Source: Pelomonas sp. Root405
GTDB taxonomy: Bacteria; Pseudomonadota; Gammaproteobacteria; Burkholderiales; Burkholderiaceae_C
Reading direction: 5' to 3'
DNA: 64,000 nucleotides
Assembly (NCBI RefSeq): GCF_001425165.1
Contig: NZ_LMDU01000001.1
Location: 404,075 to 468,074 of the forward strand
A program made the translations under genes and the position numbers. Positions 27,380 through 31,902 of the stretch are shown piece by piece (the first letter of the stretch is position 1; every line of letters begins with the position of its first letter). Under the pieces are notes generated by a model, which did not search any database, was not told the DNA's origin, and worked only from the letters and a program-made list of their open reading frames with translations.

Positions 27380-28189
27380 TCAGCGTTGATTGGCGGCCGG
27401 CGCTGCCGGAGCGGCGGCGACGCCGGCGGGCAGAGGGTTTTGGTAGGCCTCCGGGTCGAGGCGGCGCATCTCGCTCTCGATCCAGTCCTTGACCTCAGCC
27501 ATCAGCTCGCCCGGCGCGCGGCCGACCGAGGGGATCTGCTTGCCGATGGAGACGTCCACCACGCCCGGGCGCAGCAGGAAGCTCTTGCGCGGCCAGCAGC
27601 GCGCCGCGGTGGCCGCGATGGGCACGACGGGCAGGCCGGCCTCGATGGCCAGGCGCGTGCCGCCGGTCTTGTAGTCACCCACCTCGCCGCGGGCGATGCG
27701 CGTGCCCTCGGGGAACATGATCACCCAGTTGCCCTGGCCGCCCAGGCGCTTGCCCTGGGTCAGCACCTTGTTCCAGGCCTCGGTGCGGCGGCCGCGGTCA
27801 ATGTGGATCATGTCCATGCGCGCCATCGCCCAGCCGAAGAACGGCACATAGAGCAGCTCGCGCTTGAAGACATAGGCCAGCGGGTGGCTGAACAGCGCCG
27901 GGTAGGCAAAGGTCTCCCAGGTGCTCTGGTGCTTGGACAGCAGCACGACGCCGGCGCGGCGGTCGGACGCCGGCGGCAGGTTCTCCATGCCGTGGATGCG
28001 CCAGCGGATGCCGCAGATGAAGCGGGCGCTCCAGACGGCGACCTTCAGCCAGCCGGCGCAAGCCCAGTAGACCGGGTCGCCGCGGCGGAAGATGGACAGG
28101 ATGAGGACGCCGGTGGCCCAGGGGATCACGGTGACGATCAGCACCAGGACAAAAATCAGCGAGCGAATCGCGCTCAGCAGGTTGGACAT
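27380..28189 (-). CDS. plsC: 1-acyl-sn-glycerol-3-phosphate acyltransferase
   Basis: The 269-residue membrane enzyme transfers an acyl chain to lysophosphatidic acid in phospholipid synthesis. It has an N-terminal membrane helix (IRSLIFVLVLIVTVIPWATG), the acyltransferase motif SKHQSTWETF (HX4E in place of the common HX4D), and FPEGTRIARGE (about residue 160) for glycerol-phosphate binding. Its ATG overlaps the stop of the gmhB-like gene (TGATG), which indicates co-translation. This order is common in betaproteobacteria. Confidence 0.93.
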   Translation of the reverse strand: MSNLLSAIRSLIFVLVLIVTVIPWATGVLILSIFRRGDPVYWACAGWLKVAVWSARFICGIRWRIHGMENLPPASDRRAGVVLLSKHQSTWETFAYPALFSHPLAYVFKRELLYVPFFGWAMARMDMIHIDRGRRTEAWNKVLTQGKRLGGQGNWVIMFPEGTRIARGEVGDYKTGGTRLAIEAGLPVVPIAATAARCWPRKSFLLRPGVVDVSIGKQIPSVGRAPGELMAEVKDWIESEMRRLDPEAYQNPLPAGVAAAPAAPAANQR

Positions 28190-28809
28190 CAGTTCAGGTC
28201 TCCGGCCTGGGTGTCGGGGGCGAGGATCTTGCCGCGCTGCTCGGCAACGCGGCGGCGCTCAGCCTGGATGATGACTTCCGCGCAACTGGCGAGGTCGTCG
28301 TGCACGCGGGCGCTCGGTACCTGCACAAGCAGGTTGGCGAGTTCCTCGGTGCCAAGGTTGCCGAAGGGGCCGGTCAGCACGAGGTGGGGAATGCAGCCGG
28401 CGTTCTGGGCCGTCAGCAGGTCGGTCAGCGACGCGCCGACCATGTGCACCGCCGGCAGCTCGACATCGAAGCGCTCGCCGATCTGCTGGATCAGGCCCGG
28501 CAGCGGCTTGCGGCAGTCGCAGCCTTCCTCGGGCGTGTGCGGGCAGAAGAAGGCCGCGTCCAGGCGCCCGCCCTTCTCGGCCAGCAACTGGTTCAGGCGC
28601 AGGTGCACCGCGTTCAGCGAGGCCATGTCGAGCAGGCCGCGGCCGATGCCGGCCTGGTTGGTCGCCAGCACCGTGTGCCAGCCGGCGTGGTTCAGGCGCG
28701 CCACGGCCTCCATCGCGCCGGGCAGCGGGTCGAGCTCCTCCGGCGCCTTGACGTGGTCGTCGCGGTAGCGGTTGAGCGTGCCGTCCCGGCCAAGGATGAC
28801 CAGCTTCAT
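28189..28809 (-). CDS. gmhB: GmhB-like HAD protein lacking catalytic aspartates
   Basis: By length (206 residues), position after glyS and zinc loop CPHTPEEGCDC (89-99) this is the heptose bisphosphate phosphatase GmhB of LPS core synthesis. TNQ (50-52) and the Lys of CRKP (101) are also intact. Yet motif I reads VILGRDGTLN, with Gly at residue 7 where the nucleophilic Asp is expected (DxD), and motif IV reads VGASLTD, with Ala at 126 in place of a metal-binding Asp. Both were checked in the nucleotide sequence. The protein should therefore be inactive as a phosphatase, unless another residue takes over, although the reading frame is intact and under apparent constraint. A start 24 bases upstream is possible. 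Confidence 0.85.
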   Translation of the reverse strand: MKLVILGRDGTLNRYRDDHVKAPEELDPLPGAMEAVARLNHAGWHTVLATNQAGIGRGLLDMASLNAVHLRLNQLLAEKGGRLDAAFFCPHTPEEGCDCRKPLPGLIQQIGERFDVELPAVHMVGASLTDLLTAQNAGCIPHLVLTGPFGNLGTEELANLLVQVPSARVHDDLASCAEVIIQAERRRVAEQRGKILAPDTQAGDLN

Positions 28810-28837: not shown

Positions 28838-30970
28838 TTAGGTTGCGAGGCGCGACAGGTCGGCCACGCGGTTCATCGCGGCGTGCAGCCGACCCAGCAG
28901 CGCCAGGCGGTTGGCGCGCAGCGCGGGGTCCTCGGCATTGACCATGACGCCGTCGAAGAAGGCATCGACCGGCGCCTTCAGCGCAGCCAGTGCTTTCAGC
29001 GAGCCGGTGTAGTCGTGCTGCTCGAACAGGCGGTCAGCGGCGGGCTGGACGTCGGTGATGGCAGCGGCCAGCGCCTGCTCGGCGGCTTCCTGCAACAGCT
29101 CGGGCTTGATCTCGGTCGGCAGCTCGCCGTCGACTTTCTTCAGGATGTTGCCGACGCGCTTGTTGGCGGCAGCCAGCGAGGCCGCTTCCGCCAGGGCGGC
29201 AAAGGCGCGCACGGCCTCCAGGCGGCGCGGCACATCGCCCAGGCGAGCGGGGTTCAGCGCCAGCACGGCATCGACTTCCTGGGCGCTGTAGCCCTGGTCG
29301 CGTAGGCTGACGGCCAGGCGGTCGGAGAAGAAGCTCCGCAGCGCCTCGCTTGGGTTGGTAATCAGCTCACCGAACGGCGGTACGGCCGCGTCGATCAAAG
29401 CCGGCAGGTCCAGCGGTAGATTCTTCTCGACCAGGATGCGGATGACGCCGAGTGCATGGCGGCGCAGCGCGAACGGGTCCTTGTCGCCAGTGGGCAGCTG
29501 GCCGATGCCGAACAGGCCCACCAGCGTCTCCAGCTTGTCAGCCAGCGCCACGACGGTGCCGGTGTGGTTGCGCGGCAGCGCATCGCCGGCGAAGCGGGGC
29601 TTGTAGTGGTCCTCGATGGCGATGGCGACACCGTCGCGCAAGCCCTCGTGGCGGGCGTAGTAGCCGCCCATGATGCCCTGCAGCTCGGGGAACTCGCCGA
29701 CCATGTCGGTCAGCAGGTCGCACTTGGCGAGCTGGCTGGCTTGCTGGGCCTTGCTGTCCAGCACGTCGAACTCGTCCTTGGCTTCGACCGTGTAAGGCAC
29801 GGTGGCCATGCGCATCTGGTTGACGATGGCGTGCGCGATGGCGCGGACGCGTTCGGCGCGCTCGCCCTGGCTGCCCAGCTTGCCGTGATAAACCACCTTG
29901 GCGAGGCCGGGCAGGCGGTCGGCCAGCTTCTTCTTGCGGTCCTGGTCGAAGAAGAACTTGGCGTCGGCCAGGCGCGGGCGCACGACGCGCTCGTTGCCCT
30001 GCACGACGGCACTGGCGTCGGCCGGCGCGATGTTGCTGACCACCAGGAAGTGGCGAGTCAGCTTGCCCTGCGAGTCCAGCAGCGGGAAGTACTTCTGGTT
30101 GGCCTTCATCGTCAGGATGAGGCACTCCTGCGGCACGGCCAGGAACTCGGCCTCGAAGGCGCAGGTCAGCACATTCGGGCGCTCGACGAGGGCGGTCACT
30201 TCATCCAGCAGCGCTTCGTCGTCGATGGGTGTCAGGCTCAGCGCATCGGCCGCGCCTTTCAGCTGGCGCGAGATCTCGGCGCGGCGCTCGGCGAAGCTGG
30301 CGATGACGGCGCCCTGGTCGCTCAACTGAGCGGCATAGCTGTCGGCGGACTCGATGCTGACGGTGGGCTGGGCGGCTTCGAAGCGGTGGCCGCTGGTGGT
30401 GCGGCCGGCCACCAGTCCCAGTGCCTGGACCGGCACGATCTCACTGCCATGCAGCGCGACCAGGCCATGCGCCGGGCGCACGAACTTCACATCGGTCCAG
30501 CCATCGGCGAGCTGGTAGCTCATGACCTTGGGGATGGGCAGCTTGGCCAGCGTCTCGTCCAGTGCCTTCTGAAGGCCTTGAGCCAGCGTGGCGCCAGCCA
30601 CCATGCTGTCCCAGAACAGCGCCTCGGCCTTGCCATCGGGCGCGCGTTTCAATTGAGGCACGACTTCGGGGCCGGCGCCGATGGACGCCAGCTTCTTCAG
30701 AAGCGCGGGCGTCGGCTGTCCGTCGGCGGTCAACGCGACGGCGACAGGCATCAGCTTTTGCTGGACGGCCTTGTCGGCGGCCTTGGCGGCAACGCCGGCG
30801 ACGTGCACGCCCAGGCGGCGTGGCGACGCGAACGACATGACGGCCGCATCCGCAGCGGCCAGGCCCTGAGCCTTGAGGCTGTCCGCCAGCACGCCCGCGA
30901 ATGACTCACCCAGCTTCTTCAGCGCCTTGGGCGGCAGCTCTTCGACAAACAGTTCAACGAGCAAATTCAT
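28838..30970 (-). CDS. glyS: Glycyl-tRNA synthetase beta subunit
   Basis: The 710-residue subunit binds tRNA-Gly and works with GlyQ as an alpha2-beta2 enzyme. It starts LLVELFVEELPPKALKKLG, a strongly conserved N-terminus, and has CLILTMKANQKYFPLLD, an HD-like domain (CDLLTDMVGEFPELQGIMG, YARHEG) and the C-terminal anticodon-binding-like helices ending FFDGVMVNAEDPALRANRL. Its ATG overlaps the glyQ stop (TGATG); the upstream TTG in frame was not used. Confidence 0.98.
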   Translation of the reverse strand: MNLLVELFVEELPPKALKKLGESFAGVLADSLKAQGLAAADAAVMSFASPRRLGVHVAGVAAKAADKAVQQKLMPVAVALTADGQPTPALLKKLASIGAGPEVVPQLKRAPDGKAEALFWDSMVAGATLAQGLQKALDETLAKLPIPKVMSYQLADGWTDVKFVRPAHGLVALHGSEIVPVQALGLVAGRTTSGHRFEAAQPTVSIESADSYAAQLSDQGAVIASFAERRAEISRQLKGAADALSLTPIDDEALLDEVTALVERPNVLTCAFEAEFLAVPQECLILTMKANQKYFPLLDSQGKLTRHFLVVSNIAPADASAVVQGNERVVRPRLADAKFFFDQDRKKKLADRLPGLAKVVYHGKLGSQGERAERVRAIAHAIVNQMRMATVPYTVEAKDEFDVLDSKAQQASQLAKCDLLTDMVGEFPELQGIMGGYYARHEGLRDGVAIAIEDHYKPRFAGDALPRNHTGTVVALADKLETLVGLFGIGQLPTGDKDPFALRRHALGVIRILVEKNLPLDLPALIDAAVPPFGELITNPSEALRSFFSDRLAVSLRDQGYSAQEVDAVLALNPARLGDVPRRLEAVRAFAALAEAASLAAANKRVGNILKKVDGELPTEIKPELLQEAAEQALAAAITDVQPAADRLFEQHDYTGSLKALAALKAPVDAFFDGVMVNAEDPALRANRLALLGRLHAAMNRVADLSRLAT

Positions 30971-31902
30971 CAAGCGGCCGCCTTCTTGCTGTTCTTCAGT
31001 TCGATCTGCGCGACGACTTCATCGGCCCAGGCCTTGGGCGCCATCGGGAAGCCCAACCGCGCGCGGCTGTCGAGATAGCTCTGCGCCACGGCGCGCGCCA
31101 GATTGCGAATGCGGCCGATGTAGGCGGCGCGCTCGGTCACGCTGATGGCGCCACGGGCGTCCAGCAGGTTGAAGCTGTGGCCGGCCTTGAGCAGCTGCTC
31201 GTAGGCGGGCAGGGCGAGCTTCTCGGCCATCAGCTCCTGGCTCTTCTTCTCATGCGCGGCAAAGGCGCTGAGCAGGAAGTCGACGTCGCTGTGCTCGAAG
31301 TTGTAGGTGCTTTGCTCGACCTCGTTCTGGTGGAACACGTCGCCGTAGGTCAGGCCGTCGGTATAGACCAGGTCGTAGACCGATTCCTTGCCCTGCAGAT
31401 ACATGGCCAGGCGCTCCAGCCCGTAGGTGATCTCGCCGGTGATGGGCTTGCAGTCGATGCCGCCGACCTGCTGGAAGTAGGTGAACTGCGTCACCTCCAT
31501 GCCGTTCAGCCAGACCTCCCAGCCCAGGCCCCAGCAGCCGAGCGTCGGGTTCTCCCAGTCGTCCTCGACGAAGCGCACGTCGTTCTTCTTCAGGTCGAAG
31601 CCGAGGGCCTCCAGCGAGCCGAGATACAGCTCCAGGATGTTGGCCGGGGCGGGCTTGAGCACGACCTGGTACTGGTAGTAGTGCTGCAGGCGGTTGGGGT
31701 TGTCGCCGTAGCGGCCGTCCTTGGGGCGGCGGCTGGGCTGCACATAGCCGGCCTTCCAGGGTTCGGGGCCGAGGGCGCGCAGGAAGGTGGCGGTGTGGCT
31801 GGTGCCGGCGCCGACTTCCATGTCGTAGGGCTGGAGCAATGCGCAGCCTTGTTGGGACCAATAGTCCTGAAGCGTCAGGATGATTTGCTGGAAGGTCAGC
31901 AT
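30970..31902 (-). CDS. glyQ: Glycyl-tRNA synthetase alpha subunit
   Basis: The 310-residue catalytic subunit attaches glycine to its tRNA. The sequence is nearly invariant in the family: [57 protein letters not shown] and [13 protein letters not shown]. The start is at MLTFQQ; upstream codons in frame lack similarity. It lies 29 bases after lnt and overlaps glyS, so it belongs to one transcript with both. Confidence 0.98.

Follow-up and report, generated by a model that had tools for sequence, protein, structure and literature searches.

The closest described relatives of the protein considered here are the canonical D-glycero-D-manno-heptose-1,7-bisphosphate 7-phosphatases (GmhB), for which structures are available from B. 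bronchiseptica (3l8h), B. thailandensis (4pnh) and E. coli (2gmw/3l8e). From the HAD mechanism, we take Asp7 to be the nucleophile of these enzymes, Asp9 the acid/base and Asp126 a ligand of Mg. PMC8204981 gives the GmhB motifs as DXDX(T/V), S/T and (G/S)DXX(N/T)D. In this study we analysed a stretch of 64,000 nucleotides from Pelomonas sp. Root405 (the window), which encodes a protein that resembles canonical GmhB in its fold, zinc ligands, Asp9, T50-N51-Q52, Arg100 and Lys101. It differs from canonical GmhB, however, in having Gly7, Ala126 and His19, and its hosts mostly lack a full set of LPS-heptose genes. Comparison of sequences suggests that a duplicated GmhB here probably gave up its phosphatase chemistry and was retained as a ligand-binding pseudophosphatase beside the acyltransferase PlsC.

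The window protein and its active site

The gene and its neighbours comprise the following features.

28838..30973, minus strand: glyS, glycyl-tRNA synthetase beta chain, upstream of gmhB
28189..28809, minus strand: GmhB homologue of the Gly7/His19 type (putative pseudo-GmhB), 206 aa; from translation, NF006506 and AlphaFold2
28789..28791, minus strand: codon 7, Gly; in active GmhB the Asp nucleophile of motif I
28753..28755, minus strand: codon 19, His; Phe/Tyr in Asp7 proteins, invariant with Gly7
28507..28545, minus strand: zinc loop and catalytic Lys (Cys89, His91, Cys97, Cys99, Arg100, Lys101), all retained
28432..28434, minus strand: codon 126, Ala; in active GmhB the first Asp of motif IV
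27380..28189, minus strand: plsC-type acyltransferase, downstream of gmhB

Translation of 28189-28809 on the minus strand gives ILGRDGT at residues 5-11 and MVGASLTD at residues 123-130, where the aligned sequences of 4pnh and 3l8h read LDRDG and VGDSLRD. The window protein aligns with 4pnh over residues 2-178 and with 3l8h over residues 1-182, and a wrong start or frame is ruled out by the match of its start and motif I to 3l8h, which holds from residue 1 onwards. The preliminary description had reported GRDGT in place of DRDGT and VGASLTD in place of VGDxxxD, with the zinc loop, TNQ and Lys intact. Translation and alignment to 4pnh and 3l8h bear out both substitutions, and translation confirms that the zinc loop, TNQ (50-52) and Lys101 are unaltered. 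The protein thus lacks the DxDx(T/V) form of motif I, having GRDGT, and has A126 for the first Asp of motif IV. It retains Asp9, Thr50-Asn51-Gln52, the CPH...CxCRK zinc loop (89-101), Lys101 and Asp130. The acid/base Asp, the motif II Thr/Ser and the Lys (D9, T50, K101), and likewise the Cys-His-Cys-Cys ligands of the zinc loop (C89, H91, C97, C99), are the same in 39/39 Gly7 genomes.

By family and by fold the window protein is nevertheless a GmhB. It scores 187 bits against NF006506, just above the cut-off of 178, and falls below the cut-offs for TIGR00213 (82 against 149.6) and NF050049 (51.7 against 250). Its AlphaFold2 model is a confident GmhB fold (mean pLDDT 91.8), to which the closest PDB structure is 3l8h, with a TM-score of 0.92 by target and 0.81 by query and 48% identity. 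As expected of a pseudoenzyme, it has an enzyme fold that lacks the catalytic residue and is maintained by selection.

Distribution of the Gly7 form

Gly7 together with the motif IV Ala is found in all 20 genomes of the genus, and the identity of these residues in every member rules out decay or sequencing error. The family was sampled with 170 genomes at least 95% complete, of which 163 have GmhB. The other seven, outside the 163, have no GmhB at E 1e-12, so GmhB is not indispensable in the family. Gly7 occurs in 39 of the 163 GmhB-bearing genomes (25 genera), and every genus sampled more than once is uniform in this respect. It is also present in 35 of 80 named loci, which come partly from the same genomes as the family set. 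Named carriers include Roseateles, Paucibacter, Pelomonas, Rubrivivax, Ideonella, Scleromatobacter, Aquabacterium humicola and Caldimonas mangrovi, and the named loci nearest to the window gene are mostly Roseateles. Two named Aquabacterium species (L109 and L111) differ, A. humicola being of the Gly7/His19 type and A. commune of the Asp7 type.

Asp9 and Asp130 are retained throughout the 39 Gly7 genomes, and Asp126 divides them. It has been lost in 21 Roseateles-like genomes, including that of the window (clade A; Ala in 20, Val in one), and kept in 18 Rubrivivax-like genomes (clade B). The earlier claim that two catalytic aspartates have been lost therefore holds for the window and clade A (21/39), but not for the Gly7 clade as a whole, where the loss common to all is that of Asp7. 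The alignment across Burkholderiales proposed in that description, carried out here at family level, thus gives 39/163 with Gly7, of which 21 have also lost Asp126. A change confined to this strain in a decaying gene, the circumstance that was to have told against the idea, fails on both points, given 20/20 in the genus, 39/163 in the family and the purifying selection described below.

A change at residue 19, overlooked in the first reading, is the partner of Gly7. In a column scan, residues 7, 19, 36 and 68 separate the Gly7 proteins from intact proteins of HldE-positive genomes, and of the four only 7 and 19 are absolute within the Gly7 set. His19 accompanies Gly7 in 39/39 genomes, whereas Phe or Tyr occupies this position in 120 of 123 Asp7 copies. 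The named loci divide without exception into 35 that are Gly7/His19 and 45 that are Asp7/aromatic. In the AlphaFold2 model residue 19 lies in the loop 14-22 that follows motif I, presumably the flap that faces the active site in HAD enzymes. A His near position 19 is also found in the Asp-type paralogues L064, L325, L326 and L330.

Invariance in the Gly7 set extends to 54 of 183 columns, among them all 11 of the pocket and zinc columns tested. Against columns drawn at random this has a hypergeometric probability of 5.7e-7, a figure that ignores the earlier conservation of these columns. Only five of the same 11 are invariant in 37 other degenerate copies.

Gene order and selection

The preliminary description placed the gene in a conserved operon. 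In the Gly7 genomes glyS lies directly upstream of gmhB in 39/39 and plsC directly downstream in 36/39. Among the remaining three, G150 has a second gmhB between the Gly7 gene and plsC, and G106 and G194, which belong to one genus, have no plsC in the stretch around gmhB and keep the gene itself. The stop of gmhB and the start of plsC have one base in common in the window, and, judged from aligned starts, gmhB and plsC overlap in no fewer than 25 of the 36.

Within the genus the Gly7-type gmhB is under purifying selection at the protein level. Its median dN/dS is 0.177 (20 sequences), compared with 0.242 for plsC (20) and 0.188 for the 3' part of glyS (19). Beyond the genus dN/dS is higher (0.26 in clade A, 0.44 in clade B, 0.37 in intact HldE-positive genomes) and dS is large, for which reason gmhB was compared there with plsC. 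Median dN of gmhB versus plsC is 0.180 versus 0.243 in clade A, 0.265 versus 0.279 in clade B and 0.294 versus 0.336 in intact HldE-positive genomes. In the other degenerate group gmhB is the faster of the two (0.393 versus 0.281).

Origin of the Gly7 clade

In a quick GmhB tree of 73 rows, built with the trait columns left out, all Gly7 proteins form one clade with a single change (support 99), and a single change is still found when 15 active-site columns are removed. One change is likewise needed on a careful 30-row tree that includes named species, where the Gly7 clade has support of only 81/75. On the GmhB sequences, several independent losses are rejected in favour of a single origin. 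A separate case, L037 (G035, outside both the 170 genomes and the named set), has Gly7 with Phe19 and Arg100 changed to His; its genome has no HldE or WaaC above the cut-off, and it looks like ordinary degeneration and not the Gly7/His19 type.

The neighbouring genes tell a different history. Monophyly of the Gly7 hosts is rejected by GlyS and PlsC together (log-likelihood difference 222, p-AU 1.3e-55; 37 versus 35 rows). Eight Gly7 changes would be needed on the combined tree, 10 on GlyS alone and seven on PlsC alone, trees that are weakly resolved and whose histories may be unlike. Vertical descent of Gly7 with its operon is rejected by these data, and the conflict calls for either a duplication followed by uneven losses or a transfer of the gene. 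In both Caldimonas mangrovi (L125) and G150 (L226), glyS, Gly7 gmhB, Asp7 gmhB and plsC stand in a row:

L125 5971-7376: tandem Gly7-type and Asp7-type gmhB between glyS and plsC, Caldimonas mangrovi

Between the two genomes the Gly copies are 84% identical and the Asp copies 81%, and Gly and Asp copies are 57-61% identical to each other. Such pairs would fit an old tandem duplication followed by uneven loss, and from them we infer that the Gly7 gene arose by duplication. Gene transfer may be an alternative history.

Heptose genes and the second GmhB

Heptose genes were called at E 1e-60 for HldE, 1e-50 for WaaC and 1e-70 for HldD, with at most the best 12 candidate places scored per genome. 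On this basis the 39 Gly7 genomes include 17 with HldE, 10 with a WaaC match (seven above the family cut-off; those of G150, G163 and G193 below it) and three with HldD; 22 have no HldE at E 1e-60 among the best 12 or fewer places. All three genes are present in 3/39 Gly7, 58/87 intact-site and 1/37 other degenerate genomes, and none of the three in 18/39, 17/87 and 36/37, respectively. These association tests ignore kinship; in a kinship-corrected test of intact site against heptose genes there were only three supported independent pairs.

A second GmhB (E 1e-8), each with the motif I Asp, is present in all 17 HldE-positive Gly7 genomes, lying within about 10 kb of HldE in 15 of them; in G150 the tandem copy has this Asp too. 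Among the 69 intact-site genomes that are HldE-positive, a second GmhB is present in at least 15, only the best 45 places having been scored in 34 of the 69. The contrast gives a Fisher probability of 1.4e-9 with kinship ignored. In the genus a further GmhB-like match (1e-10) is found in 11/11 members with HldE above the cut-off and in 1/9 without HldE, the exception (G009) having Gly in motif I of its further copy. Motif I of the second copy has Asp in all 10 read of the 11 HldE-positive members (G005 left out). The search for second copies (E 1e-8 or 1e-10) took in eight of the 22 HldE-negative Gly7 genomes (G026, G030, G032, G077, G104, G105, G120 and G206), and one of the eight, G104, has a second GmhB. 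The earlier suggestion that another gene does the heptose phosphatase work is supported by these counts, the 17 HldE-positive genomes all having a second GmhB with an intact Asp motif and the other 22 having no HldE at the threshold. It would appear, then, that Gly7 genomes either leave the heptose step to another gene or do without it.

The window's own genome has a cluster on contig 14 with two glycosyltransferases of the GT9 family, other glycosyltransferases, a separate HldE-type kinase, an Asp-type GmhB and, by eye, an ORF resembling the nucleotidyltransferase half of HldE.

L331 2420-8975 and 18676-19623; L002 824-1914: contig 14 cluster, window's genome

The same genome has no HldD at 1e-70 and no WaaC at 1e-50, with weaker GT9 matches at 1.5e-25, and because HldD and WaaC are absent at these thresholds its heptose probably goes into a glycan other than the LPS core.

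That the pathway was lost and the enzyme then degenerated is a poor fit for the Gly7 clade, in which 3/39 genomes have the full gene set and the rest of the pocket does not vary; such a course of events suits the other degenerate group better. The heptose kinase is not a condition for keeping the site intact, as 18 of 87 intact-site genomes have no HldE. According to PMC9302095, E. coli and Klebsiella depend on GmhB only in part. Two genomes with LPS-heptose genes have no GmhB at E 1e-8, G151, in which HldE, HldD and WaaC are present and another phosphatase would have to serve, and G159, in which WaaC is present. The partial need for GmhB and the case of G151 together mean that presence of the pathway alone is no proof of which phosphatase works.

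Other degenerate copies

Outside the Gly7 clade there are 37 further copies with a changed Asp7, Asp9, Thr50, Lys101 or Asp126, and 36 of these are in genomes without HldE. In one genome, G066 (L194, L198), the copy beside plsC is degenerate (ERDG and an altered motif IV) and that beside HldE is intact; it is classed in our counts by the intact, HldE-linked copy. G022, G023, G029, G060, G102, G112 and their relatives retain DRDG and have VGS in motif IV, mostly with His for the second Asp. Ser126 is found in 17 copies of this VGS group, which has no HldE, HldD or WaaC at the thresholds used and represents a second loss of another kind. Loss of the nucleophile recurs in the family, since further HAD-IIIA/GmhB-like genes of the genus have Asn, Ala or Gly in place of the motif I Asp:

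L003 1501-1929 and L004 1501-1944, window's genome; L073, G009

GmhB has been retained outside the Gly7 clade in 53 genomes in which none of the three heptose genes is found at the thresholds used, 36 of them with damaged catalytic residues. Because it is retained there, the GmhB beside glyS may already have served a non-catalytic purpose when Gly7 arose.

Function of the Gly7 protein

If a pseudophosphatase is the correct reading, one copy of a duplicated gmhB would have lost Asp7 to Gly and exchanged the aromatic residue 19 for His. This change would have occurred once, in the Roseateles-Rubrivivax-Caldimonas part of the family, and the Roseateles branch would later have lost Asp126 too. The protein has kept the fold of GmhB together with its zinc loop, its acid/base Asp, the Thr of motif II and the Arg/Lys pair, and it is predicted to bind a small phosphorylated ligand without turnover, acting as a sensor or partner protein. 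Where ADP-heptose is made, another GmhB, of the Asp type, would take part in its synthesis. Phospho-aspartate cannot form in a HAD phosphatase that lacks the Asp, and it is therefore very likely that the Gly7 protein has lost phosphatase activity. The retained pocket residues and the invariant new His suggest a pocket that most likely still binds a ligand, and a gene kept under selection beside the same neighbours probably has a new, non-enzymatic job. The lasting gene order makes PlsC the first candidate for a partner, which is a guess; the substrate and product of PlsC are both phosphorylated lipids. The idea of a pseudoenzyme put forward in the preliminary description is supported at the level of sequence, since the nucleophile is gone clade-wide and yet purifying selection and gene neighbourhood persist.

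Other readings take the altered site to be rebuilt or still active. It is conceivable, but rather unlikely, that Gly7/His19 is a rebuilt HAD active site in which the His of the flap stands in for the lost Asp nucleophile. This His would then be a catalytic group of a new kind, or else it would gate a sensor of a phospho-ligand; by controlling PlsC, such a sensor would couple the making of phospholipids to sugar-phosphate status. That the rebuilt site is still catalytic, with His19, perhaps together with Asp9 and the zinc loop, carrying out a different phosphoryl transfer or hydrolysis on a different substrate, we also think unlikely. Inactivation alone would not call for the gain of an invariant His, and the strict pairing of Gly7 with His19 (39/39), with the other tested pocket columns invariant save 126 in clade A, would suit such a site. 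However, clade A has lost Asp126 and yet has His19, which makes Mg-dependent chemistry there unlikely, and the His near position 19 of the Asp-type paralogues may mean that this residue only marks a ligand preference; to our knowledge there is no active HAD phosphatase without the Asp. Nor does it seem probable, in spite of the intact fold, zinc loop and acid/base Asp, that the protein remains a weak heptose-bisphosphate phosphatase using attack by water or a side chain borrowed from elsewhere. HAD catalysis is expected to cease once the nucleophile is lost, and every HldE-positive Gly7 genome (17/17) has a second GmhB of the Asp type.

The remaining readings give the protein itself no work. 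The frame might be retained only for expression, through translational coupling of plsC to the glyS operon, as the one-base overlap in the window and the overlap in at least 25 of 36 Gly7 genomes would allow. We regard an idle protein as quite improbable, since purifying selection in the genus is as strong on gmhB as on the neighbouring genes and the pocket and zinc columns are invariant; moreover, G106 and G194 retain the gene with no plsC in the stretch around it, and in Caldimonas it is the Asp copy, not the Gly copy, that adjoins plsC. Slow decay after loss of LPS heptose, leaving a relic, would resemble the scattered losses in other heptose-poor lineages (37 copies, 36 without HldE, with gmhB faster than plsC), to which the copy upstream of plsC in G066 also belongs. 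For the Gly7 clade it is very improbable, as the remaining pocket is invariant, gmhB is no faster than plsC in clades A and B, and the Gly copy has been kept beside an Asp copy.

Retention as a pseudophosphatase, the preferred reading, has consequences for annotation. For this gene in many Burkholderiales genomes, the phosphatase name attached to NF006506 is probably mistaken, and so are pathway reconstructions that draw on it; a Gly7-type gene should not be filed as the phosphatase. The order glyS-gmhB-plsC suggests that GmhB has a second function, separable from heptose synthesis. The gene seems to offer a clear natural example of how a biosynthetic phosphatase becomes a conserved pseudoenzyme, with the two-copy tandem state surviving in Caldimonas.

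Comparison with known systems

Among the matches listed from open-licence PMC literature, in titles and the starts of abstracts, no GmhB pseudoenzyme and no heptose-free LPS in this family is described. Within the window's genome the HldE-linked GmhB (G000:C14, L002) is a HAD-IIIA relative with 38% identity over residues 6-139. It differs from the window protein in that its Asp motif is intact and it adjoins a heptose kinase and glycosyltransferases.

Outside this family, STYX and MK-STYX are pseudophosphatases of the protein tyrosine and dual-specificity families, as described in PMC8269279 and PMC8907265. Like them, the window protein is a phosphatase relative without its catalytic motif; STYX and MK-STYX act as regulators. 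The window protein is unlike them in being a bacterial HAD sugar phosphatase relative. A closer parallel in chemistry may be drawn with PDB entries 3u7g (mPNKP D170A with single-stranded DNA) and 1swv (D12A phosphonoacetaldehyde hydrolase), in which an Asp, presumably the HAD nucleophile, has been replaced by a small residue. By its entry title, 3u7g has ligand bound despite the Asp mutation. The changes in these two proteins were engineered, whereas Gly7 has been fixed naturally, together with a second change at residue 19.
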